The notes under the pieces are model-generated. The model did no database searches, was not told the origin of the DNA, and was given only the letters and a program-made list of their open reading frames with translations. Positions 28,228 through 40,179 of a stretch of 64,000 bases of DNA are shown in pieces (position 1 is the stretch's first letter; each line of letters opens with the position of its first letter). Made by a program: the position numbers and the translations under genes. The stretch is from Halopseudomonas salina (GTDB taxonomy: Bacteria > Pseudomonadota > Gammaproteobacteria > Pseudomonadales > Pseudomonadaceae): NCBI RefSeq assembly GCF_008641105.1, contig NZ_VTTI01000011.1, positions 99,341 through 163,340 of the forward strand. The letters are read 5' to 3'.

Positions 28228-30063
28228 TCAGTTTTTCTGCCATTCGATTGTGTTTCGACCATTTTCCTTGGCGAGATACAGTTGGCGGTCAGCCTCCCGC
28301 AAAAGAGCCTCCTGATCAGTGAGCTCTTTGGGCACCCCAGAGGCAACGCCAATGCTGGCAGAGACTCTCAGTTGGTGCTGTTCGTCAGTCACGAGGCTCC
28401 GACTCAAGGCGTCCATGATCAGTTGCGCCACGGCTACGGCATTCTCGATGTCTGTCTCGGGGAGAAGAACAATAAATTCCTCACCACCATAGCGGGCAGC
28501 AATATCGGCGGAATGCCGTAGACAGGCGCGAATGACTTCGGCCGTTCTGACCAGGCAAAGGTCTCCGAAGGAGTGGCCGTAATTATCATTGATGCGCTTG
28601 AAGTGGTCGAGGTCGATCATAAGGACGGCAAGCGGCCGTTGGCAGCGGTGGGCGTTTCGGTATTCAGTCAGAAAAACATCGTCAAAGGCGCGCCGATTGA
28701 GCAATCGAGTCAGGCCATCAGTGGTACTGATCTCCCTGAGCTTGGCATGGGTTTTCTCCAGCTCCAGTGTCCGCTCAAGGACGATTCGATCAAGGTTTTC
28801 ATTAGCCTGTATCTGATGTTCAAGCATCTTTTGCTGCGCTTTGGCTGCATCCTGCCGAGCCAACGCCGCCATGCGTTTTTCGAAACGCATGCGATGAGCC
28901 AGGGCAAAGGACAAAAGAACGGCCTGCAGACCAGCGCCTATCTGCGTGATCCGCATGGAAAACCACTCGAGCGGAAGGATACCCAGGGATGTAAGTGCCA
29001 GCAGCATGCCCACGACCAGTAGACAGCCCCATGCCAGGTTGAATACCCAGGCGCCATGGAAGCCGTCAAGCCAGCGTGCGAACCCGGCCCATACAGCACA
29101 GATGATCCCGCCAATGGCTAGCAGGACCGCAAGCATCATCATCTGTTGATAAGGCAAGATGAATGCACCGGCCATGATGAGTGCGGAGGCATACACAAAA
29201 CCCAGAGCCAGGCGGCCCAGAAATGGGCGCGTCTGTGGAAGCAGAAGGAAGCTACGGAAAAACAGTGCGGCAAAAGCGACCAGGCTGGCGACTGACATGA
29301 TCGGCACCACGTCGTTCAGCCAGGTAGCATCAGGCCAGAGATATTTGAACGAGATGCCCTCGATGCCCCCAAACACCACGGCAGTGGACAGCACCATCAT
29401 GGCGTAATAGAAATAGCTGACATCGCGGATCGACTTGAGTATCAGCAGATTGTATAGGGCCATGACCAGCATGGCGCCATAGAACAATGCCTGTGCCACA
29501 GCTCTCTCGTAACTGCGCTCCACCAGGTGCTGATTGCTGTAGATATGCAGAGGGATAAGTACTGAAGAGCTGCTGCGAACCCTCAGGTACACGGTAGTGG
29601 TGTCGCTCTGCTGCAGTTTCAGCGGGACGGCAAAGTGGGGGTAATCCAGGAGGCGCTGAGCATGGGGAAGCTTGTCGCCTAACGAATGATGCGCAGCCAA
29701 GGAGCCGTTCTCGTAGATATACACATCTACCCAATCGAGAATTGCGTTGCCGATCACCAGAACATAGGGTGTTGCGGGGCTGTTATCCGTTAATTCCCGG
29801 GAGACGGTGAACCGAACCCAGTAGGTTGAGCTGGTGAAACCGAAGCTGAGCACCTCTCGTTTGGGGGGTTGCCACTCAAGCCCGCTTGCGAGCAGCGCGT
29901 CGATGCCTAGCTGGCCCTCCTTGTCCTCCAGGTATTCTATATGGGTGTTGAGGGAGAACAATGACTGACCGGGAGAGAGTATCAGCGGTTGAGGGGGCTC
30001 CGCGGCCAGTGGCGCAGTCGAGAGTGCCAGCAGCCAATACAGAATAAGCCGTATCCATCTCAT
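28228..30063 (-). CDS. 7TMR-DISM membrane diguanylate cyclase, second of a tandem pair
   Basis: 611 residues. A signal peptide (MRWIRLILYWLLALSTAPLA) leads into a periplasmic 7TMR-DISMED2 sensor domain (about 30-160, with STYWVRFTV and VYIYENG) and then seven membrane helices (about 180-385), a short coiled coil (KAQQKMLEHQIQANENLDRI) and a C-terminal GGDEF domain with ARYGGEEF. The inhibitory site that should read RxxD reads HSAD, so product feedback is probably lost. The start overlaps the upstream paralogue by four bases (ATGA), indicating coupling. The sensor domain family is thought to bind carbohydrates. Confidence 0.9.
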   Translation of the reverse strand: MRWIRLILYWLLALSTAPLAAEPPQPLILSPGQSLFSLNTHIEYLEDKEGQLGIDALLASGLEWQPPKREVLSFGFTSSTYWVRFTVSRELTDNSPATPYVLVIGNAILDWVDVYIYENGSLAAHHSLGDKLPHAQRLLDYPHFAVPLKLQQSDTTTVYLRVRSSSSVLIPLHIYSNQHLVERSYERAVAQALFYGAMLVMALYNLLILKSIRDVSYFYYAMMVLSTAVVFGGIEGISFKYLWPDATWLNDVVPIMSVASLVAFAALFFRSFLLLPQTRPFLGRLALGFVYASALIMAGAFILPYQQMMMLAVLLAIGGIICAVWAGFARWLDGFHGAWVFNLAWGCLLVVGMLLALTSLGILPLEWFSMRITQIGAGLQAVLLSFALAHRMRFEKRMAALARQDAAKAQQKMLEHQIQANENLDRIVLERTLELEKTHAKLREISTTDGLTRLLNRRAFDDVFLTEYRNAHRCQRPLAVLMIDLDHFKRINDNYGHSFGDLCLVRTAEVIRACLRHSADIAARYGGEEFIVLLPETDIENAVAVAQLIMDALSRSLVTDEQHQLRVSASIGVASGVPKELTDQEALLREADRQLYLAKENGRNTIEWQKN

Positions 30064-31931
30064 AGGGATGGCGCCCCAGGTTGCCATTCAACGCGGTTCC
30101 GGCCGTTGCCCTTGGCGAGGTAGAGATGCTGGTCTGCTTCTTTTAACAACGTCTCTCGGTCTGATGTGCTCCGGGGGATGTGGGCGGCGACCCCGATACT
30201 TGCGGTAAGGGTGACGGTATATTGCCCATCATCGACGATCATGCATGCCAGGGCGTCCAGGATGGCCTGACCGATGGAGGCTGCACCCTGGGTATCCGTA
30301 TCAGGCAGCATGACGATGAACTCCTCGCCCCCATAGCGTGCGACGACATCGGAGGCGCGGCTGAGACTGTTCTTGATTGCCTGGGCCGCATGGGTCAGAC
30401 AGACGTCGCCGAACAGATGCCCGTAGCTGTCATTGATGTGCTTGAAGTGATCAAGATCGACCATCAAAACAGCGAGAGAGGATTGATTCCGGTAAGCCCG
30501 CTCATATTCGACAAGAAAGCGATCTTCAAAGGCACGCCGGTTGAGTAGGAGAGTCAGACTGTCTGTCGCGCCAAGTGCCTCCAATCTCTCGTTTGCTTCC
30601 TGCAGCTCAGCAGCGCGGTGTTGCACTAGCCGATCAAGATCTTCATTGGCCTTGATCTGCTGGTCCAGCAATGCTTTTTGCGCGGCTGTAGATTCTTGTT
30701 CGGCTTTCTCCCGCAGATCGCGCTCTGAGTTCATTCGGTAGGCCAGCGCGAATGATAGAAGAAGCGCCTGCATGCCAGTCGCGAGCTGCATGACATTCTC
30801 GGTAAACAGGTTGCGCGGGAGAATGCCGAGCTTGTTGAACGCGAAAACAATCCCTCCAGCGAGTACGAAGGTCCAGGCAAGGTTAAGGTACTTGGCAGCT
30901 TCAAACCCATCTCGCCAGCGGACAATGGCAGCCCAGAAACCCGCTACTATCCCGACTACCGCGAGCACTATGGTTGTTTGAACCAGCGGCCGATAGGGCA
31001 GGTAAAACGCGGTGGCCATCGTGAACAGGGGCAGGATCGCGATCAACAGCATTACCCTGTCCAGTACTGGTCGGGTATTTGGGGTATCCAGAAATCTGCG
31101 AAAAAGCAGAGCGGAAAAAATGACCAGACTGCTAAGTGCCACGATCAAAATGGAATCATTCAGCTCAGTTGTATTTGGCCATAGGTATTTGAACGTCAGC
31201 CCCTGAATACCACCCAGTAACGTCATGATCGATACGACTACCAGAACGTAATACAGATAATTGACGTCGCGAATGGAGAAGAAAACCAACAGGTTGTATA
31301 CCGCCATTATCAGCATGGCCCCGTAGTAAAGAGCCTTTATCATTCCCTGGTTGTAATTGATCTCGACCATGGTTAGTTCCTGAGTCAGGTTCAGAGGGAC
31401 CTGGACCGCTGATGTGCTCAGGACACGCAAGTAGACGCTGGTCATCACAGTGGGGTGTAGCGCTATCGGCACGAGAAAATGGGTGTGGTCGATCGGGCGC
31501 TGAAAGTAGGGCTGCTGATCACCCATTGAGTGGTACGCCACCTGTGCGCCGTTCTCGAAAATATAGACTTCGACATGGTCCAGCACCGGATAGGCTATCT
31601 CCAGCAGATAGGTCTCGGGTAGGGCCTCGGCCTGAGTGAGTCCGACCCGAAGCCAATAGGCGGAGGCCGAATAACCGAAGTTGAGAATGTCCTGATCGGA
31701 ATTGAGCCAGCGGGAGGAGGGGGCTCGAGCCTGGTCGATCGTCAATGTGCCGCTAGGATCTTCCATGTAATCTACATAGGGTCCCAACTGAACGCGGGTA
31801 AGGTCAGAGGTGAGGGACAGGGCATCGGCATATACTGGAAACGCATGGCAAAACAGGAACGCCAGCAAGGCGCGGCGGACAAGGTGAGAGTACTTGCTGT
31901 TCAAACGAAACAAACCCGTGTGACTCGACAT
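30060..31931 (-). CDS. 7TMR-DISM membrane diguanylate cyclase, first of a tandem pair
   Basis: 623 residues with the same architecture as the downstream gene: cleavable or anchoring N-terminal helix near residues 18-36, DISMED2 domain (SAYWLRVGL, VEVYIFENGAQVAYHSMGDQ), seven-helix region, coiled coil (QKALLDQQIKANEDLDRL) and GGDEF with ARYGGEEF. Here the I-site RASD is intact, unlike its neighbour. The two proteins align throughout and clearly arose by tandem duplication followed by substantial divergence. Both make c-di-GMP in response to periplasmic signals (family knowledge). Confidence 0.9.
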   Translation of the reverse strand: MSSHTGLFRLNSKYSHLVRRALLAFLFCHAFPVYADALSLTSDLTRVQLGPYVDYMEDPSGTLTIDQARAPSSRWLNSDQDILNFGYSASAYWLRVGLTQAEALPETYLLEIAYPVLDHVEVYIFENGAQVAYHSMGDQQPYFQRPIDHTHFLVPIALHPTVMTSVYLRVLSTSAVQVPLNLTQELTMVEINYNQGMIKALYYGAMLIMAVYNLLVFFSIRDVNYLYYVLVVVSIMTLLGGIQGLTFKYLWPNTTELNDSILIVALSSLVIFSALLFRRFLDTPNTRPVLDRVMLLIAILPLFTMATAFYLPYRPLVQTTIVLAVVGIVAGFWAAIVRWRDGFEAAKYLNLAWTFVLAGGIVFAFNKLGILPRNLFTENVMQLATGMQALLLSFALAYRMNSERDLREKAEQESTAAQKALLDQQIKANEDLDRLVQHRAAELQEANERLEALGATDSLTLLLNRRAFEDRFLVEYERAYRNQSSLAVLMVDLDHFKHINDSYGHLFGDVCLTHAAQAIKNSLSRASDVVARYGGEEFIVMLPDTDTQGAASIGQAILDALACMIVDDGQYTVTLTASIGVAAHIPRSTSDRETLLKEADQHLYLAKGNGRNRVEWQPGAPSL

Positions 31932-32644: not shown

Positions 32645-34717
32645 TCAGGGGTCTTGTGACATGTGCTGCACGCTCAGGCGGGTGCCAAGTTCCAGAGTAA
32701 CGGGGCGATCCCATTTTTCTTCCAGTTGGTCGCGCAGCTGTTCGAGATCCTCACGCTGCAGCCATTGCTCGGCAACCAGGTCGCCACGCACCAGCAGGCT
32801 GCCGCCCTGGCGACTGACTTGCAGGTTGCTCAGGTTGACGGGCTTGCCATTGATCAGCAGGCCATAGCGGCTAAGGTCGCGTTCGATCTGCCAGTGGCTG
32901 TTCATGTCGATAAAAGCCAGTGTCAGCGGAATCGATACGGCCAGTAGCAGTACGCCGGAAATCGCCAGCCCGCGCTTGGCACGCACCAGCGGGGCATAGC
33001 CCAGCACCAGAAAGGTCAGCGCCGCACTAAGGGCAATGCCGACCAGGTTGGTAAGAAACAACAGCATGGCGCCGCTGAACACTTCCCATTGCCACCAGCC
33101 AATGCCGATGCCGGCCACCGACAGCGGTGGCACCAGGGCTACGGCAATGGCGACTCCGGGCAGACTTTTCATGATGCTTTCGCGAGCATGCGCATAGCCG
33201 CCAGCAATACCCGAAGCAATGGCAACCCCGAGATCCAGCAGATTGGGGTGAAGGCGCCCGGCCATCTCCGGGGTGATGCGATCAATCGGGATAATCAGGG
33301 CGATGATGGCTGCCGTACCCAGCGCCAGCAGAACGCCGATACCAATGGTCAACAGCGAACGGTCCAGCAGGGTCCTGTCACCTCGCAGCAAGCCCATGGC
33401 CAAAGAGATGATCGGCGCCATAAGCGGTGCCAGGACCATGGCACCAATGATCACCGCAGCGCTGGAGAGAAACAGACCGAAGCTGGCCACAACAACGCTG
33501 AGCGCCATCAGCGCAATGTAGTGCGCAGGAGCCTGGGCATTATCGCGCAAGAGCAGAAACAGATCCTTGAAATCATCCTCCAGCGCGCGAGTGAACAGCG
33601 GCAGGTGACTCTGGATCATTTTCAGGCGTGTTTCATTGGTCGGCAGATTCTCGACCCTCATGGTGTCCTTGCTCTGGCGGTTGCCTTGCTGGCTGGCCTG
33701 AAGAATCTCACCGGTATTGATGCGCACTGCCTCGGGATAGAGCTCAAGTTCAATCACGCTGGCCTGTCGGCGCCGGCCGTCAACGAAGTAGGTCAGCTGT
33801 TGCGATGACTCCAGCTTGAGGTGCTGGCTCTTGATATAACTGACCGCGGCTGGCAAACGTTTTACCCCGGCTTCGCCCTTGAATACGGCGGCCAGTAGAA
33901 AGGCCAGGTATTCGGTCACTGATTTTGGCGCAACCAGGATTGTCGAGATCTTGCGATCCTGCGCCGATATGCTGGTGTTGATCAGTTTGGCAGCGGCGCT
34001 GTTGACGTCATTCTCGATGGCTACCAGTCCGGTAATCGCGGTTTTCAGCGTGACGTCCTTGCCGGTGGTCAGGGTGATCGGGAAGGGCTTGATCACCAGC
34101 AAGTTGCGCAGGCTGTTCCAGACCAGTGCCAGCCAGTAGAGCAGGTGCTGCCAGTTCGAGGCCTTGCGGTTTTGGTAAGTCTTGCTGCGCTGGTCGAGGA
34201 ACGGGGTTTCGCCAAGCATCAGCATGCCCAGCACTACCTCGTTATTGCAACGCACCACATCCAGTGCGGTGGCATTGCCAGCGAACGCCAGTGCCAGCGC
34301 GTCATCGCGTTTGCCCGGGATGCCAAACCAACGGTGCAGGCGGCTTTTCGGATTGGCCGGGATGATGCCCAGCGAGAAGTTCAGGGTTTTGGCCTGGTTA
34401 ACGTATTCGCTTATGTCATCGTCCTCGACAATCACCACCACATGCTCGGCGTGGTCCAGGCAGAGCCCCGGTTGGCTGAGAAAAGTGTTCTTGTCGAATT
34501 CATGGAGAAGAATGTTGCGTTCTGCGGCAAAGGCGCGAATATCCGGCAAGCGAGCCTGGTGTGCGACTGGGCAGACGAGCAGTACCTGTTGATGAAATGT
34601 CACGTGCGAGGATTTCCGATTGGTATGCAAGGCGTCAATTGTGCGTGATCGATGCTTGTCGGAAAAGGGCTGGGTGACAAGAACCTGATTTACTCCTGGC
34701 ATCTCGCTTCTGCGCAT
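32645..34717 (-). CDS. DUF389 / TIGR00341-type membrane protein
   Basis: Up to 690 residues. The N-terminal half is soluble, with a kinase/esterase-like alpha/beta region (VVVIVEDDDISEYVNQA) and a USP-like segment. The C-terminal half has about seven membrane helices starting near residue 400, with the conserved DUF389 segments SAAVIIGAMVLAPLMAPIISLAMGLLRGD and SGIAGGYAHARESIMKSLPGVAIAVALVPPL. The true start may be a GTG at 34603 (VTFHQQVLLV), because the first 38 residues do not look like the family. Function unknown; no operon partner. Confidence 0.8.
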   Translation of the reverse strand: MRRSEMPGVNQVLVTQPFSDKHRSRTIDALHTNRKSSHVTFHQQVLLVCPVAHQARLPDIRAFAAERNILLHEFDKNTFLSQPGLCLDHAEHVVVIVEDDDISEYVNQAKTLNFSLGIIPANPKSRLHRWFGIPGKRDDALALAFAGNATALDVVRCNNEVVLGMLMLGETPFLDQRSKTYQNRKASNWQHLLYWLALVWNSLRNLLVIKPFPITLTTGKDVTLKTAITGLVAIENDVNSAAAKLINTSISAQDRKISTILVAPKSVTEYLAFLLAAVFKGEAGVKRLPAAVSYIKSQHLKLESSQQLTYFVDGRRRQASVIELELYPEAVRINTGEILQASQQGNRQSKDTMRVENLPTNETRLKMIQSHLPLFTRALEDDFKDLFLLLRDNAQAPAHYIALMALSVVVASFGLFLSSAAVIIGAMVLAPLMAPIISLAMGLLRGDRTLLDRSLLTIGIGVLLALGTAAIIALIIPIDRITPEMAGRLHPNLLDLGVAIASGIAGGYAHARESIMKSLPGVAIAVALVPPLSVAGIGIGWWQWEVFSGAMLLFLTNLVGIALSAALTFLVLGYAPLVRAKRGLAISGVLLLAVSIPLTLAFIDMNSHWQIERDLSRYGLLINGKPVNLSNLQVSRQGGSLLVRGDLVAEQWLQREDLEQLRDQLEEKWDRPVTLELGTRLSVQHMSQDP

Positions 34718-34730
34718 GGGAGTGAAAAGT

Positions 34731-34775
34731 TGGGGTCAGATAAACATTTTTCTTTAAGCCCAATTGGTCAAGGTT
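34731..34775 (+). repeat. Decayed GGGGTCAG-type palindromic repeat
   Basis: The left arm TTGGGGTCAGATAAA at 34730-34744 is the same as in the intact hairpin at 62482-62543. The right arm is degenerate (TTAAGCCCAATT, 34754-34765). It lies 15 bases upstream of the DUF389 frame's first possible start. It is one member of the repeat family concentrated in the right end of the window. Confidence 0.5.
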
Positions 34776-34841
34776 TGCTATTGCGAGATAAGTTACACTG
34801 TTTGCTTTTCACAAGTGCTCAGTCAGCGCCAAGTTAATCAA

Positions 34842-35483
34842 TTACCAGCGAATTAACTTTGGTACTGCAAAACGCCCCGCCAGCGCGCAAAAGCCCACCG
34901 GAATACAGTGCCATATGGCGAGATGGCCCAGGCTATCGAACGGGCAGGACAGACCGTAGGCAAAGCTGCCAATGGCACCGGCGGCGAAGCCGGTCAGGGT
35001 GCCCGCCGCCACAAGTGACACAGGCGCACCACGGCGCAACCAAAAAATCAGAGCGCCGGCAGTAATCATACCGAACGCTATGCCCTGCATGGCGCAGGCA
35101 AAACCGTGAACGTCCGTTATAACCTCATCCATCCGGCCGTGTGCGGTCTCTGTGATGATCGCGCTTGCCGGTATGATGGCCAGTAGCAAGGTGCTCCAGA
35201 GGGTGGGGCGGGCGGAGTTGCCGACCTGAGGGTTGGCCATATGTACCACGGTCCATGCTGCGCCGCCGCCGAGGGCGGCCAACATGCCGTTGGTGATAAA
35301 GAAAAATGCCGAGGCCCTCCCGGAGGTTACCCCCTCCCATACGCCCAATAGCAAAACCACTAGAACAAGAGTCGCAAGCGCGGCTGCAGCCACCCAAAGT
35401 AACCCTTGTCGCGGCAGAACCGGGTGGATGGGTTGCAGGTCTTCAGTTAAGTCATCGATCAGAGATTGGTTCGTTTTTTTCAT
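34842..35483 (-). CDS. nrsF: NrsF-type anti-sigma factor (DUF1109)
   Basis: 213-residue inner-membrane protein with about six helices. Conserved features of NrsF are visible: a Cys in GFACAMQGIAFG and another in YGLSCPFDSLGHLAIWH, the pair proposed to sense metal or redox. In Caulobacter NrsF holds the ECF factor SigF inactive until copper, chromate or cadmium stress. The gene starts one base downstream of the sigma-factor gene, the standard sigF-nrsF order. It closes the minus-strand arm bufA1-doxX-sigF-nrsF, so the sensor is made together with a bufferin. Confidence 0.88.
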   Translation of the reverse strand: MKKTNQSLIDDLTEDLQPIHPVLPRQGLLWVAAAALATLVLVVLLLGVWEGVTSGRASAFFFITNGMLAALGGGAAWTVVHMANPQVGNSARPTLWSTLLLAIIPASAIITETAHGRMDEVITDVHGFACAMQGIAFGMITAGALIFWLRRGAPVSLVAAGTLTGFAAGAIGSFAYGLSCPFDSLGHLAIWHCIPVGFCALAGRFAVPKLIRW

Positions 35484-35484
35484 A

Positions 35485-36015
35485 TTAATTTGCCTTTTCC
35501 ACCAGTGAGGTCAGTCGTTTTAGCCCACGGTGAACGTTGATTTTGACCAGGCTTTCGCTTTGCCCAGTTCGTGCCGCTGCCTCAGCAACGGAAAGCCCGC
35601 TGATTTTAACCAAGTCAATCACGCTTCGCTGTTTATCGGGCAACTGTGCCAGCAGGCGATCCAGGCTTAAACGGGCGTGCAATGCATCTTCTTCACCAGG
35701 TGCAGCGTAGTCGGCATCATCCAATGGCTTCTCTGGCGCGCGATAATGGCCGCGCAAATGGTCCAGCCACCGATAGCGAGCAATGGCCGCTAACCAGGGT
35801 AGAAACGCACGCGATGAGTCCCAGGTCGCGCGTTTGTTGTGCATGGCCAACATCACCTCCTGCACCAGGTCATCAAGCTGCTGCGGCGCTACCCGGCGGC
35901 GGAAATAACGTTCCAGCCAACGCTGCACTTCCTTGAGGAGGGTGCGGTAGGCCGCTCGGTCTCCCATCTGGGCGGCTGCCATCAAGCCTGCAAGTGTGGG
36001 TTCATCCTGCTGCAT
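35485..36015 (-). CDS. sigF: ECF sigma factor of the SigF type controlling the bufferin locus
   Basis: 176-residue sigma-70 family factor with regions 2 and 4 only. Region 2: LDDLVQEVMLAMHNKRATW and AFLPWLAAIARYRWLDHLR. Region 4: LPDKQRSVIDLVKISGLSVAEAAARTGQSESLVKINVHRGLKRL, the helix-turn-helix that reads the -35. The start MQQDEPTLAG at 36015 is seven bases past the doxX stop; a longer reading from 36093 would overlap doxX and lacks family similarity. Paired with NrsF. The identical TGTAAC-N17-CGAA elements at 36928-36954 and 36976-37002 are its likely targets, so it would be autoregulated. Confidence 0.85.
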   Translation of the reverse strand: MQQDEPTLAGLMAAAQMGDRAAYRTLLKEVQRWLERYFRRRVAPQQLDDLVQEVMLAMHNKRATWDSSRAFLPWLAAIARYRWLDHLRGHYRAPEKPLDDADYAAPGEEDALHARLSLDRLLAQLPDKQRSVIDLVKISGLSVAEAAARTGQSESLVKINVHRGLKRLTSLVEKAN

Positions 36016-36022
36016 TGTGTGA

Positions 36023-36565
36023 TTACTCAACCTGTGCAGGTGGCCGCTTGGCAGCTTCAAGCGGTGCAGATGTAACAAGGCGCTTACGTGCAATCATCTC
36101 CATCATGCGAGCCAAAGCTGCATCCAGCGTCAACCAGCCACCTCCGCGCACCATCAGCACAAGGGCCATAGCGGACCATAGGCTGTGGGTCGCCCACCAA
36201 GCCTCCGGGTAGACAAAAATCTGAATGACCAGAGTCATGATCAACAATGCCATCGCCGAGAAGCGTGTGGCCAGACCCAGAACCAACAGAACCGGGAACA
36301 CATGCTCGGCGTAAGTGGCCAGAGGTGTCGCCAGTTCCGCCGGCAGAGGCAGGCCAGTGTATTCATACTCGAACAGTGTATAGGCGCTGTCCTTTATCGT
36401 GATCAAAGTTTCCGCTTCTACCTTGGTGCGCCCGGAGCGCCAGAACACGCCCGCCAGGGCTACACGGACCAGAAGCAGTGCCAGCCCCTCGGTGAAGGGC
36501 GTGGTTAGCGGACGAAGTAACGCGTGGTAAACCGTGCTCGCCCTTTGCCATTGAATAAATAGCAT
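36023..36565 (-). CDS. DoxX family membrane protein
   Basis: 180 residues, four membrane helices (LALLLVRVALAGVFWRSG, HVFPVLLVLGLATRF, MALLIMTLVIQIFVY, SAMALVLMVRGGGW). The FWRSGRTKVE segment after helix 1 is typical of DoxX proteins that accompany bufferin genes (GigT in the gold-induced gig operon). The role is unproven; quinone or redox chemistry is often suggested. It lies nine bases downstream of bufA1 and seven upstream of sigF, so the four genes form one transcript. Confidence 0.88.
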   Translation of the reverse strand: MLFIQWQRASTVYHALLRPLTTPFTEGLALLLVRVALAGVFWRSGRTKVEAETLITIKDSAYTLFEYEYTGLPLPAELATPLATYAEHVFPVLLVLGLATRFSAMALLIMTLVIQIFVYPEAWWATHSLWSAMALVLMVRGGGWLTLDAALARMMEMIARKRLVTSAPLEAAKRPPAQVE

Positions 36566-36573
36566 GGGTTGGA

Positions 36574-36861
36574 TTACCCCTCTATAGGCGCAAGCGAGCC
36601 CATGCCATTGGGCGTATCAATACTTTCACATGTGCCGGCTTCCACCAGTGTCCAGGCGTTGCCCTGGTAATCCGTGGTGGAGGTTCCTGCGCAACTGGTA
36701 CCGGCACCGGCAGCGCAGTCGTTCTCTCCGGCTTTCGCGACACCGTAGCATTTCTCCATGGGGGTTTTTTCCTCGGCACCGGCCGTCGCAGCCATCAGGC
36801 CGCTTGCCAGAGTGGCAGTAAGGGTCAGCCCCGCAAGGCGGGCAATTGTTCGCGTGTTCAT
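36574..36861 (-). CDS. bufA1: Bufferin precursor, BufA1 family (DUF2282)
   Basis: 95-residue exported RiPP precursor. The signal peptide ([20 protein letters not shown]) ends near ATAGA. The mature part carries four Cys in the BufA1 pattern: [22 protein letters not shown] and AGTCESI. In studied bufferins a DUF692 (MNIO) enzyme converts core Cys to thiooxazole or oxazolone groups that bind copper in the periplasm. The ATG at 36861 has GGTGA upstream; a GTG at 36870 would add three residues. It is the first gene of the minus-strand arm, directly behind the SigF-type promoter. No maturase gene is on this strand; BufB from the divergent arm must serve it. Confidence 0.88.
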
Positions 36862-36927
36862 AGCAGTCACCGTTGTTCATAAGTTGAAGGTTTAGTGCGC
36901 CACTTTCCTCGCGGGCACATCTGCTAA

Positions 36928-36954
36928 TTCGTTGGGCGTGTTCATTGGGTTACA
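36928..36954 (-). promoter_or_regulatory. SigF-type promoter of bufA1-doxX-sigF-nrsF
   Basis: Minus strand: -35 GGTGTAAC with core TGTAAC at 36954-36949, 17-base spacer, -10 CGAA at 36931-36928. The same two elements at the same distance occur on the plus strand 22 bases away. The core resembles the GTAAC/CGAA-type promoters of SigF-like ECF factors. It gives a leader of about 60 bases before bufA1. Confidence 0.7.
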
Positions 36955-36975
36955 CCTGAAAAATAAAAAATCGGG

Positions 36976-37002
36976 TGTAACTTCTGATCGGGCGTGAGCG
37001 AA
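36976..37002 (+). promoter_or_regulatory. SigF-type promoter of bufA2-bufB-bufC
   Basis: Plus strand: -35 GGTGTAAC with core TGTAAC at 36976-36981, 17-base spacer, -10 CGAA at 36999-37002. It mirrors the divergent promoter exactly in core sequence and spacing. The DNA between the two -35 cores (36955-36975) is an A-rich tract. Transcription would start near 37008, giving a leader of about 60 bases before the bufA2 ATG. Confidence 0.7.
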
Positions 37003-37069
37003 CCAGTTAGTGCGCGCCTAACGCGTACTTCCTTCACTTGAAAACACACTGTTTGAAAAGGACCTGAGC

Positions 37070-37360
37070 ATGAAAACATTTTCTCAAAAAGCGACCATGA
37101 CCGCCGCCACCGCCGCTGCCTTCGCCATCCTCTCTTTGACGGCAAGCGCAGCAGAGCTCCCTGCTGGCAGCAAAGGCGTGGCCATTAACGCCGCAGACAA
37201 GGTGCATTGCTATGACGTGCACAGTTGTAAGGGTATGTCCGATTGCGCGACCACCGAGCACGACTGTAAAGCCCAGAACGCCTGCAAAGGGCACGGCTTC
37301 AAAGCGATGGAAGCCGGTGCATGTCTGAGCAAAGGCGGCACCATCGGTGACCTGGGCTGA
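37070..37360 (+). CDS. bufA2: Bufferin precursor, BufA2 family
   Basis: 96-residue exported RiPP precursor with signal peptide (MKTFSQKATMTAATAAAFAI, cleavage near SASA-AEL). The mature region has six Cys: KVHCYDVHSCKGMSDC, EHDCKAQNACKG and GACLSKGG. The repeated CKG motifs mark it as BufA2, distinct from the BufA1 gene on the other strand. An AAAGGA site lies before the ATG. It heads bufA2-bufB-bufC. Modification of the core Cys by BufB with help from BufC is the established chemistry of the family; which Cys are modified here cannot be read from sequence. Confidence 0.88.
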   Translation: MKTFSQKATMTAATAAAFAILSLTASAAELPAGSKGVAINAADKVHCYDVHSCKGMSDCATTEHDCKAQNACKGHGFKAMEAGACLSKGGTIGDLG

Positions 37361-37421
37361 TTGGCCAAAGGCTAAATCTGGATTGAACGCCACCAACCTA
37401 TGTATCTACCCAGTTTGACCG

Positions 37422-37445
37422 CCTGCATTCCCCCGGGAGTGCAGG
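37422..37445 (+). promoter_or_regulatory. Intercistronic stem-loop between bufA2 and bufB
   Basis: CCTGCATTCC (37422-37431) pairs with GGAGTGCAGG (37436-37445) over ten positions including one G-U, around a four-base loop. It is followed by TTCTAAAAC, not a T-run, so it is more likely a partial terminator or RNA-stabilising hairpin. It would favour many copies of the small precursor over the maturase, a common design in RiPP operons. Confidence 0.5.
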
Positions 37446-37475
37446 TTCTAAAACTCACAGCTTCGGAGCAGAAAT

Positions 37476-38312
37476 ATGTCCAAACCCATAACCTTTCCCG
37501 GCTACGGGCTGGGCCTTCGCTCGCCCCACTATCAGAACTTTCTTGAGCATCAAGTGCCTGTGGATTTTGTGGAGGTGATTTCCGAAAACTTTATGATCGA
37601 GGGCGGCAAGCCACTGCGTATTCTCGAGCAAGTTCGCCAGAAACACGAAGTCAGCTTACATGGCGTATCCATGTCGGTTGGCTCTGCCCAGGGCTTGGAT
37701 CAAGGCTATTTGGCCCGCCTCAGAACACTTGTCACGCGTATAGAGCCCTTGTGGGTTTCAGACCATCTCTGCTGGACACGAACCACCGCCCACAACAGTC
37801 ATGATCTTCTCCCTTTGCCCTTGACTATGGAGGCACTGGAAATCGTTTGTGCCAATATTCATCATGCACAGGAATACTTGGGTCGCGCCATGCTGTTTGA
37901 AAATCCCTCGAGTTACCTGTCCTTTCCCGAAGACGAAATGACCGAGGCGCGTTTCCTGAAGGAGATGGTCTCGCGTACTGGTTGCTACCTGTTGCTGGAC
38001 GTTAATAACCTGTGCGTTAACGCCCACAATCATAACTTTGACCCGCTGGAGTATCTGGAGCAGTTGCCGCTTTCGCGAGTCCGCGAAATTCACCTGGCCG
38101 GGCACACGCCTGGCGATATTCGCATCGACACCCACGATCGACCAGTATGCGGGGAGGTTTGGGCGTTGTACGAGAAGGTAGTGAACCGGGTTGACGGAGT
38201 GGGCACTTTGCTGGAGCGCGACGATGCCATACCGCCGCTGCCGGAATTGCTGGCGGAGCTGGACTGTGCACGGGACTGCGCGCGCAAGGTGAAACAGGAG
38301 ACAGCGGCATGA
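37476..38312 (+). CDS. bufB: Bufferin maturase BufB (MNIO, DUF692)
   Basis: 278-residue multinuclear non-heme iron oxygenase with a TIM-barrel fold. Metal-ligand regions typical of DUF692 are present: VDFVEVISENFM, SLHGVSMSVGSAQGLD, WVSDHLCW, FENPSSYLSF, LLLDVNNLCVNAHNH, REIHLAGHT and THDRPVCGEVW. It oxidises Cys in the bufferin core peptides, probably in the cytosol before export. It is the only maturase in the locus and so must handle both BufA1 and BufA2. It starts 115 bases after bufA2, beyond the stem-loop, and overlaps bufC by four bases. Confidence 0.92.
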   Translation: MSKPITFPGYGLGLRSPHYQNFLEHQVPVDFVEVISENFMIEGGKPLRILEQVRQKHEVSLHGVSMSVGSAQGLDQGYLARLRTLVTRIEPLWVSDHLCWTRTTAHNSHDLLPLPLTMEALEIVCANIHHAQEYLGRAMLFENPSSYLSFPEDEMTEARFLKEMVSRTGCYLLLDVNNLCVNAHNHNFDPLEYLEQLPLSRVREIHLAGHTPGDIRIDTHDRPVCGEVWALYEKVVNRVDGVGTLLERDDAIPPLPELLAELDCARDCARKVKQETAA

Positions 38313-39079
38313 CCTCGCTCGCAACCATGCAAAACCAAATGATAGCCAGCCTGGTTGGTGAGGACGCTATTGTTTCCGGGTACTGGAGCAAGCAGCAACA
38401 GGCAGGATTGGCGGTGTACCGTAATAATTATCGCACCGCGACAATTGAGGCTCTGCACAACACCTTTGGGCGCACCTGTCGGCTGGTAGGCGAAGCGACA
38501 TTTACCCGGGCGGCTATTCATCACCTTGTTCAACATCCACCGCACAGTTGGTCGTTGGATCATGTTGGCCAAGACTTTTGCTCGACCTGTGCGGCTCTTT
38601 TTCAAAACGATCCCGAGGTGTCGGAACTGGCGTGGCTGGAATGGGCCATGCATTGTGCGTTTACTGCACCTGATGTTGACGCTATGCAGGTGACCGCCTT
38701 TGCCGAGGCCACCGCTTCTTTTGAGTCAGACGCCTGGTATGAACTGCGCTTGCGATTCACCCCGGAACTCACCGCGCGCGTCGTTACTCATGATCTGATA
38801 GCACTATGGCAACAAACGGCAACGGCACAAGCCGCACTGCCGGTCGGCAAACTGAGCGCATCACACTCGGCCATCGTTTGGCGTGAAGGAGAGCTCCCGG
38901 TGTTCCGCCTTTTAGATAACTACGAGGCAGGCGCACTGCAAGCGATGATGGGCGGTGCGAGTTACGGCGATGCCTGTGAGATAGTCCTGGCTGCATGCCC
39001 TGCAGACGAAGCAGCAGCCGCTGCAGGAACCATGCTTAGTCGCTGGCTAACCGACGGGCTGGTTGTCAGCATCGGTTAA
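38309..39079 (+). CDS. bufC: BufC, putative bufferin maturase partner (DUF2063)
   Basis: 256 residues with the HvfC/BufC N-terminal domain: LATMQNQMIASLVG, then GLAVYRNNYRTATIEALHNTFGRTCRLVGE, which is the DUF2063 hallmark. The C-terminal half is winged-helix-like and less conserved. BufC is thought to bind the precursor leader and present it to BufB. The ATG overlaps the bufB stop (ATGA), so the two are made together in near equal amounts. No terminator with a T-run was seen downstream. Confidence 0.88.
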   Translation: MTSLATMQNQMIASLVGEDAIVSGYWSKQQQAGLAVYRNNYRTATIEALHNTFGRTCRLVGEATFTRAAIHHLVQHPPHSWSLDHVGQDFCSTCAALFQNDPEVSELAWLEWAMHCAFTAPDVDAMQVTAFAEATASFESDAWYELRLRFTPELTARVVTHDLIALWQQTATAQAALPVGKLSASHSAIVWREGELPVFRLLDNYEAGALQAMMGGASYGDACEIVLAACPADEAAAAAGTMLSRWLTDGLVVSIG

Positions 39080-39231
39080 GGATTATTTATCGAGCTATAG
39101 GTACCGCATAGCCAGGCCTAAAGGGTGGTCCGTTCTCTGACTTTTGGAATCACACAGGAGGCTGGATCGTAGATACGTTTACCGACAGGCAAGACCTGAC
39201 AGCTCTTCCTATGAATTTTGGCTTTCCGCTT

Positions 39232-40179
39232 TCAGCGGCAGTTGCCCGCCTTGCGGAAACCCTGGGTAATGGCTTCCTGTTCAGAGCCAAATTCGATCCG
39301 GTTTTTCTTGCCAATCTGCGTGTAGCCCGGGCAGCCATTTGGCAAGTGATACAGCTGACTGCGACTGTTACCTCGCACTCCAGCGCTCGCCTCCGGTGCT
39401 TCTGACATTGTGTTGACTCCTACGCTTTTAAGCCCGCCGGCCTGATTGCGATGGTGCAAGGTCCAGTAACGCGTGCCTGTGACGAAGGGGTTGTCGTGGC
39501 CCATCAGGCTGCTGACACGTCGGTTGCGCAGCTGCTCCCATTCGCTGGCCGGGAACTGCTTGTCCCAGGCCATCAACAGGCGTTGCTGTTGCTCTGCCAG
39601 CCGCAAGTCGTAATGATCGTGCATATAAAAGTAGGTGCGGGCGATTTGCCCTTTGACCGCGTTACGTGGCTCGGCCACACGCCCTTTGAAGTCCACCTTG
39701 AAGTCGCAGCGTCCATGCTGCCGTGGCGCCGACGGCAACACACCAAAGCGGTAGTTACTGCGGTCTGCATTAACTTCGCCGACGGTCGGGGTGAGGTTAT
39801 GCAGATCGGCCTCCATGCGATTGAACAGCGGATCGGTGCGCTTGCAGTTGCTGCGTCCACCTTGCTGCCAGCATTGGCGCTGTTGTCCGAACAGCGAGGC
39901 CGGGACGATGTGCTCCCACTCAATGCGCTGGGCACGGTTGGGCTGGGCGCGTATCTGGTAATCGCAAGCTTGCAGATCAGGGCGACCGCCGGAGCGACCG
40001 GTCCACTCCCAGTTGCAGCCACAGTAGAGGCTGCCGAGTGTATTGCGATCATGATAGACCTGTTCGCGGGCCTGGTTTTTTGCGGCCTCGAATGAGACTG
40101 GAGCGGCAAGCAGCGTACTACTGAGTAACCACAGCGCCAGCAGGGAGGCGCCAAGCCCGTAACGGCTAAATCGATACAT
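39232..40179 (-). CDS. endA: Periplasmic or secreted endonuclease I family protein
   Basis: 315 residues with a signal peptide (MYRFSRYGLGASLLALWLL, cleavage near LLAAPV). Endonuclease I core: FEAAKNQAREQVY, TLGSLYCGCNWEW, the active-site His in RIEWEHIVPASLFG, and ADLHNLTPTVGEVNADRSNYRFG with metal-binding Asn. Several Cys pairs suit a disulfide-bonded periplasmic enzyme. About 85 residues after the usual EndoI end (from about 230) form an extension of unknown role (GYTQIGKKNRIEFG). The start at 40179 is preferred over 40203 for the signal peptide. Confidence 0.9.
   Translation of the reverse strand: MYRFSRYGLGASLLALWLLSSTLLAAPVSFEAAKNQAREQVYHDRNTLGSLYCGCNWEWTGRSGGRPDLQACDYQIRAQPNRAQRIEWEHIVPASLFGQQRQCWQQGGRSNCKRTDPLFNRMEADLHNLTPTVGEVNADRSNYRFGVLPSAPRQHGRCDFKVDFKGRVAEPRNAVKGQIARTYFYMHDHYDLRLAEQQQRLLMAWDKQFPASEWEQLRNRRVSSLMGHDNPFVTGTRYWTLHHRNQAGGLKSVGVNTMSEAPEASAGVRGNSRSQLYHLPNGCPGYTQIGKKNRIEFGSEQEAITQGFRKAGNCR

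Follow-up and report, generated by a model that had tools for sequence, protein, structure and literature searches.

One BufB-BufC pair probably serves two bufferin families at a two-armed, SigF/NrsF-linked locus of Halopseudomonas salina

Can one maturation enzyme finish two different families of copper-buffering peptides? The question was raised by a locus at positions 34842-39079 of a 64-kb stretch of Halopseudomonas salina DNA (contig NZ_VTTI01000011.1, positions 99,341 to 163,340), hereafter the window, in which genes for two bufferin precursors, BufA1 and BufA2, stand back to back with a single MNIO maturase gene, bufB, and a single partner gene, bufC. Tandem precursors have been reported, as have genomes in which a single MNIO/partner pair accompanies several precursors, and the suggestion that one such complex may modify several precursors was left open (PMC12452194). 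Comparison of the window with related genomes led us to assign a probability of roughly 0.68 to the reading that one BufB-BufC pair serves both bufferin families in a periplasmic copper-buffering locus under SigF/NrsF control. That one MNIO would have to serve two precursors, on which the original prediction did not comment, is the more interesting point. The genes are as follows.

34842..35483, minus strand: nrsF, anti-sigma factor (PF06532, 134 bits)
35485..36015, minus strand: sigF, extracytoplasmic function (ECF) sigma factor of 176 amino acids, ATG start at 36015 (PF04542 and PF08281, regions 2 and 4)
36023..36565, minus strand: doxX, membrane protein (PF07681, 61 bits)
36574..36861, minus strand: bufA1, Buf1/DUF2282 bufferin precursor of 95 amino acids with 4 Cys and a signal-peptide-like N-terminus (PF10048, 88 bits)
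37070..37360, plus strand: bufA2, Buf2 bufferin precursor of 96 amino acids with 6 Cys (NF050166, 94 bits, cut-off 60)
37476..38312, plus strand: bufB, MNIO maturase of the Buf2 type (PF05114, 352 bits; NF050167, 368 bits, cut-off 310)
38309..39079, plus strand: bufC, DUF2063 partner protein (candidate PME type 1) of 256 amino acids (PF09836, 64 bits)

All seven genes were intact and ordered as the original prediction had described them, nrsF-sigF-doxX-bufA1 on one strand and bufA2-bufB-bufC on the other. After refinement of the starts (bufA1 ATG at 36861), the region common to both arms could be placed at 36862-37069, which is exactly the predicted 208 bases. Gaps of 1 base (nrsF/sigF), 7 bases (sigF/doxX) and 8 bases (doxX/bufA1), together with a 4-base overlap of bufB and bufC, fit two operons. 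The locus had also been called complete. The seven genes agree with this, but the bufA1 arm holds neither bufB nor bufC, so the locus is complete only if the lone bufB-bufC pair also serves BufA1.

MNIO genes were counted as PF05114 matches in the genomes of 50 two-armed loci besides the window, 44 with bufA2 and six without (loci and genomes from the scans of relatives' species genomes are numbered L and G, respectively). Exactly one match was found in 44 of the 50 genomes. Four others have two matches that appear to be fragments of a single gene, lying on overlapping contigs in G013 (96.9% over 802 bp), on two contigs that cover model positions 1-125 and 97-261 in G640, and in neighbouring frames in both G767 and G803. 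Genomes G559, G560, G592 and G605, in which bufA1-doxX lies apart from bufA2-bufB-bufC, have one MNIO each, and the closest relative, the metagenome-assembled genome (MAG) of Pseudomonas sp. NORP330, shows only this locus. A second MNIO may nevertheless lie in the host genome outside the 64 kb and mature BufA1, which would make the locus two systems side by side. Caulobacter offers a precedent, with two buf operons that each have their own DUF692/DUF2063 pair (PMC3511200), and two MNIO genes do occur in two of the 50 two-armed genomes (G009 and G828) and in G005, whose buf units are dispersed. Set against the single genes, whole or in pieces, of the other 48 genomes and the lone locus of NORP330, such a division of labour appears quite improbable.

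The loci without bufA2 bear on the same question. At L013, L014, L023, L026 and L027, the plus-strand promoter leads straight into bufB. BufA2 (NF050166) was absent from all five genomes, in a search that matched eight of eight genomes with bufA2-bearing two-armed loci, and each of the five had one MNIO gene and two DUF2282 genes. Since their BufB sequences nest as one clade (95/81) amid bufA2-bearing loci, bufA2 was probably lost while BufB stayed beside BufA1. A sixth locus of this kind, L089, was found later, and its genome (G473) has one MNIO. The four Cys of BufA1 were kept in every correctly read locus and its central Cys motif is conserved. By elimination, BufB would act on BufA1, most simply as a Buf2-type enzyme able to accept this precursor as well.

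The active site itself speaks for a narrower task. In BufB, D249 takes the position of the proposed catalytic base and D250 that of the Buf2-type selectivity Asp, as assigned by motif and numbering with FonB outside the alignment; an Asp next to the proposed catalytic base is the Buf2-type residue according to PMC12668002 (section 13). BufB also groups with other Buf2 maturases in the tree, and unmodified precursors have been named as a possibility (PMC12452194). These points would suit a locus in which SigF regulates both arms while BufB-BufC modifies BufA2 only, BufA1 being exported unmodified as a plain cysteine peptide or for some other task. Such a restriction is unlikely, as BufB was kept in all five genomes where only DUF2282 precursors could be found and the BufA1 motif has been conserved; residue 250 in those five loci is Asp in two and Glu in three.

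Besides residue 250 and the genomes with two MNIO genes, further points weigh against a maturase common to both precursors under SigF/NrsF control. Several of the relatives' genomes are MAGs, and the MNIO counts rest on genomes of unstated completeness. BufA1 may be unmodified, or an unrecognised precursor may be present in the bufA2-less genomes. Nor do all loci show the link to the sigma factor: of 44 bufA1|bufA2 loci, counting the window, 40 have sigF on the bufA1 arm, and the exceptions are L008, L064, L070 and L090. L064 and L090, like the later locus L112, have no sigF in the stretch examined, L008 and L070 start near a contig end (L008 is cut there past bufA1), and no NrsF match occurred anywhere in G006, the genome of L008.

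The second DUF2282 protein of the bufA2-less genomes is lipoprotein-like. In three of the five (L051-L053), a separate SigF promoter precedes its gene; L054 and L055 lack one. Second precursors of this kind were read at seven loci (L051-L057): each has a linker as well as a signal resembling that of lipoproteins, the 2-kb stretch contains no MNIO, and GTAAC-N17-CGAA was found upstream in five (L051, L052, L053, L056 and L057). The available text of PMC12452194 makes no mention of a membrane-anchored Buf1.

The joint control of the two arms could be read from the region between them, which contains the following elements.

36928..36953, minus strand: promoter for SigF serving bufA1-doxX-sigF-nrsF, GTAACC-N16-CGAA without mismatch
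36954..36976, no strand: A-tract spacer of 23 bp between the back-to-back -35 boxes, candidate common UP (upstream) element
36977..37002, plus strand: promoter for SigF serving bufA2-bufB-bufC, GTAACT-N16-CGAA with a single mismatch, at position 6 of the -35 box

GTAAC-N17-CGAA matched just these two sites in the 64 kb, against 0.22 expected, and none of 100 shuffles gave two matches. CGAA lies 66 bases from the start codon on the minus arm and 67 on the plus arm. The SigF target sequence GTAACC-N16-CGAA is found upstream of both arms, once with a single mismatch; in Caulobacter, the same motif was assigned to SigF by 5' rapid amplification of cDNA ends and primer extension (PMC3511200). Both divergent promoters were present in 12 of 12 two-armed loci that had been found by bufB and not by promoter. 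At the dispersed loci L007 and L010, bufA2-bufB-bufC and bufA1-doxX each have their own SigF promoter, and so does the sigF-nrsF unit of L007's genome (L062), which speaks for all three units being members of one regulon. Because each arm of the window has one SigF promoter and these are the only matches in 64 kb, it is very probable that both arms, and with them sigF itself, are driven by a single SigF/NrsF pair; on this point the original prediction is upheld by the paired promoters as well as by those of the dispersed units. Terminator-like sites were no commoner than in shuffles, and no sigma-70-type site could be found in 34600-39300. Three SigF promoters were seen at L058, L059 and L060, where bufA1-doxX is divergent from sigF-nrsF and a further promoter with bufA2-bufB-bufC follows; the genomes with this layout (G592, G605 and G559) have one MNIO each. 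Some Erythrobacter-type loci (L005, L006, L009, L011 and L035) carry an extra SigF promoter within or just past doxX, immediately before sigF.

In all 30 loci examined, the A+T content of the spacer exceeded that of its flanks (mean 0.58 vs 0.38). The longest A/T run of the spacer was unremarkable in L009. This suggests that the A/T-rich core between the -35 boxes is a common UP element. The C-terminal domains of the RNA polymerase alpha subunits occupy positions -43 and -53 in E. coli, so that with a spacer of 23 bp the proximal site of one promoter would be the distal site of the other. Spacer lengths in 64 buf loci were 22-25 (30 loci), 32-37 (21), 43-47 (12) and 60 (1), with none of 26-31 or 38-42; loci found by promoter were restricted to spacers of 15-45. 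Helical phasing of the -35 boxes was not significant (p = 0.17 after tree-thinning to 11 contrasts; 0.24 for any period) and was retained as a lead only. The later bufA1|bufA2 locus L112 (spacer 30) breaks the phasing; L113 (36) and L111 (46) fit it. The SigF tree (59 of 64 loci) requires 12 changes of spacer class, although its joins are weak.

As for the inducing signal, both C130 and C180 of NrsF stand in columns that are Cys in 19 of 19 aligned rows, and they match C131 and C181 of Caulobacter NrsF by position, the Caulobacter sequence being outside the alignment. Replacing those two cysteines frees SigF in Caulobacter (PMC3511200), where the SigF regulon, to which sigF, nrsF and the two buf operons belong, was induced by copper in all conditions tested and a sigF::Tn5 mutant was copper-sensitive (PMC8224329). 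By analogy, copper would be the main signal. Alternatively, the primary signal could be periplasmic thiol oxidation by hypochlorous acid, chromate or cadmium, in a wider envelope-stress regulon that has copper buffering among its outputs. The Caulobacter regulon is induced by chromate and cadmium (PMC3511200) and includes an msrPQ-like pair (PMC8224329), and a Brucella ECF sigma/anti-sigma system has been linked to hypochlorous acid resistance (PMC8315932). This alternative is somewhat doubtful, given the place of the regulon in the core copper response and the copper sensitivity of the mutant, while loss of sigF in Caulobacter had no effect on chromium or cadmium survival (PMC3511200) and rpoE7 and its target in Sinorhizobium meliloti were not induced by H2O2, cadmium or chromate (PMC6180224); moreover, doxX aside, nothing but bufferin genes and the sigma pair is found on the arms in the window. 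With copper as the likelier signal, the response had been predicted to be self-amplifying. The promoter of the sigF arm agrees with control of the sigma factor's own gene; strong amplification is unproven, since sigF of Caulobacter did not show strong auto-regulation under chromium or cadmium (PMC3511200). Elsewhere, at L032, L085, L086 and L113, sigF (with nrsF) is divergent from a gene that no buf profile recognised. Neither MNIO nor DUF2282 was matched in the genome of L032 (G578), so SigF/NrsF apparently controls something else there.

How far the layout extends was determined by scanning species genomes with the window BufB, which gave 18 loci. A search of related genomes for the same gene order had been proposed along with the original prediction, and this order was found at ten of the 18 bufB-seeded loci as two arms with both precursors (L002-L006, L008, L009, L011, L012 and L015). 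Nine of the ten are from sphingomonads and one from the 'Pseudomonas' MAG NORP330, which pairs with the window; the named loci were assigned to Sphingomonadales by their genus names. The design, for which a description in pseudomonads had been recommended, is not peculiar to that group; it is mainly sphingomonad. Among the remaining loci, L001 is an overlapping contig of L015's genome, L013 and L014 are two-armed without bufA2, L007 and L010 are dispersed, and L016-L018 are other MNIO loci. The divergent promoter pair was present in 36 of 246 genomes in the order of G001 (Qipengyuania), against 1 of 246 for a reversed-pattern control, in 50 of 298 genomes of its family and in 7 of 385 of its class (spacers 20-50). 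In the class of NORP330 it occurred in 2 of 369 genomes, the second (G204) being a Buf1-type sigF locus. The 81 distinct pooled pairs comprised 44 bufA1|bufA2 (window included), 6 bufA1|bufB, 14 bufA1|sigF and 17 other or unassigned pairs. With the profiles used, ten of the 81 lacked buf and sig genes on both flanks, as did the later L114 and L115.

This distribution raised the question of origin. The window BufB is 86% identical to that of NORP330, 64-69% to those of L002-L014 and at most 52% to those of other genomes in NORP330's order, in which 102 of 145 genomes, NORP330 included, had a BufB match at 1e-20. SigF of the window and of NORP330 share 88% identity. In the tree, BufB of the window and NORP330 fell inside the sphingomonad clade (branch 96/88). 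When both were forced together with 11 gammaproteobacterial rows, the approximately unbiased test gave p 0.058, so horizontal transfer from sphingomonads is likely but not proven. GC content and GC content at third codon positions do not stand out at the locus, which by composition is not a recent arrival. A wider reading, for which the balance is about even, joins these points. A Buf2-lineage MNIO-partner pair, with a dual ability either acquired or original, would modify both families; sphingomonads would have done without a Buf1 maturase and placed both precursors under one back-to-back SigF promoter pair with a common A-tract; BufA2 would later have been dropped and a lipoprotein-type BufA1 added, and the unit would then have moved whole into gammaproteobacteria.

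Among the closest known systems is the SigF-NrsF regulon of Caulobacter, with Buf1 (CC3254-3257) and Buf2 (CC2907-2905) operons. It shares the sigma factor, anti-sigma factor, promoter and precursor families, and one SigF drives Buf1, Buf2 and sigF (PMC3511200, PMC8224329); however, its buf operons lie apart and are each equipped with an MNIO and a DUF2063 partner, whereas those of the window stand back to back with one common pair. In S. meliloti, rpoE7-ecfR7, encoding an ECF16 sigma factor, is divergent from the bufferin-type operon SMb20530-20527 with promoters of the same consensus, but this is one operon with its own DUF692 and DUF2063 genes, and a second precursor arm is not described in the available text (PMC6180224). 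The placement of the sigma gene inside the operon with one bufferin had been singled out for description in pseudomonads. A SigF-type factor (RpoE7) divergent from and driving a Buf1-type operon is already known from S. meliloti (PMC6180224), and any novelty would lie with the SigF-linked Buf1/Buf2 locus with a common maturase. Gammaproteobacterial Buf2 clusters have the same bufA2-bufB-bufC order and Buf2-type MNIO as the window. The 11 best other loci of NORP330's order (L100-L110, one with doxX) represent them, yet sigF, nrsF, bufA1 and GTAAC-N17-CGAA occurred in none of the 11 (3.8-kb stretches). In L100, L101, L106, L108, L109 and L110, the BufA2 profile matched twice, as expected of the duplicated 12-Cys type. 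DUF2282, DUF2063, DoxX, sigma-70 and NrsF are listed as cluster parts by Antoine et al. 2025, where sigma/NrsF genes are found in Buf1 and not in Buf2 clusters, in contrast to the window (PMC12452194). A SigF-linked Buf1/Buf2 locus with a common maturase is not described in the available text of that paper, and a literature search, with the founding bufferin paper and the figures and supplements of PMC12452194 outside its reach, returned no description of one. The parts are thus known and the common arrangement appears to be undescribed. What would be new is the common maturase with the evidence from the natural loss of bufA2, while single-sigma control is well supported by comparison.

The gene assignments were further examined by family models. 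BufA1 has a DUF2282 match of 88 bits (cut-off 22.4) and four conserved Cys, as expected of Buf1, and lacks the bufABC order, being followed by doxX-sigF-nrsF with bufB-bufC on the opposite arm. Bufferin precursor genes without a linked MNIO have been reported, so the missing neighbour does not exclude it from the bufferins (PMC12452194). BufA2 shows the Buf2 features of an NF050166 match above cut-off, six Cys and an MNIO downstream, and like that of BufA1 its N-terminus is signal-peptide-like as judged by eye. An ECF sigma factor adjoining a PF06532 anti-sigma factor with two conserved Cys corresponds to the ECF16-like SigF/NrsF type, although NrsF scored 43.7 bits on the equivalog NF042994 (cut-off 300) and belongs to the Pfam family and not to that equivalog. 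BufB has E37, H62, H97, E142, D175, H206, D218, H220, E247 and D249, residues that are conserved in at least 97% of 37 rows and are presumably for the most part metal ligands, and has the relative 3bww (E 1e-38). BufC is a candidate for PME type 1, a type defined by DUF2063 together with an RRE domain and some 250-260 amino acids; it had no convincing relative in the PDB by sequence (best E 0.32). DoxX fell below the HvfX cut-off (NF050144, 53 vs 80 bits) and BufC below that of HvfC (NF050145, 19 vs 142 bits). The flanks are ordinary, with a DUF389 fusion protein, endonuclease I and a glucose/sorbosone dehydrogenase. The DUF389 membrane protein (32645-34717) is an apparent fusion whose N-terminal part matches YegS-type lipid-kinase models below cut-off. 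Two overlapping adjacent 7TMR-DISM sensor genes with GGDEF (28228-31931) have the same build and are probably a tandem duplication. No tRNA was found within the 64-kb window.

A working of the locus can be proposed, partly after Caulobacter. NrsF would keep SigF at the inner membrane until copper in excess, or some other oxidant or thiol-reactive metal, acts via the two conserved cysteines of NrsF. Released SigF would direct RNA polymerase to both back-to-back promoters. The minus arm would then yield BufA1 and DoxX along with more SigF/NrsF, and the plus arm BufA2 with BufB and BufC. BufB-BufC would oxidise Cys of both precursors to thiooxazoles, as in Caulobacter, ahead of Sec export, and the modified bufferins would bind copper in the periplasm. 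The two peptides had been predicted to be secreted; bufferins are periplasmic instead (PMC12452194). As far as the genes and promoters of the locus indicate, it probably lets the bacterium soak up excess copper with two peptides that depend on a common finishing enzyme and a common stress switch. The divergent ECF promoter pair with its common A-tract is a possible means of coupling the two arms. With its switch built in, the locus is a small copper-response unit that appears to be transferable. Where two precursor families stand with a lone maturase, the question of whether one complex modifies several precursors becomes directly testable, and the subclade in which one precursor was lost and the enzyme kept bears on the same question.

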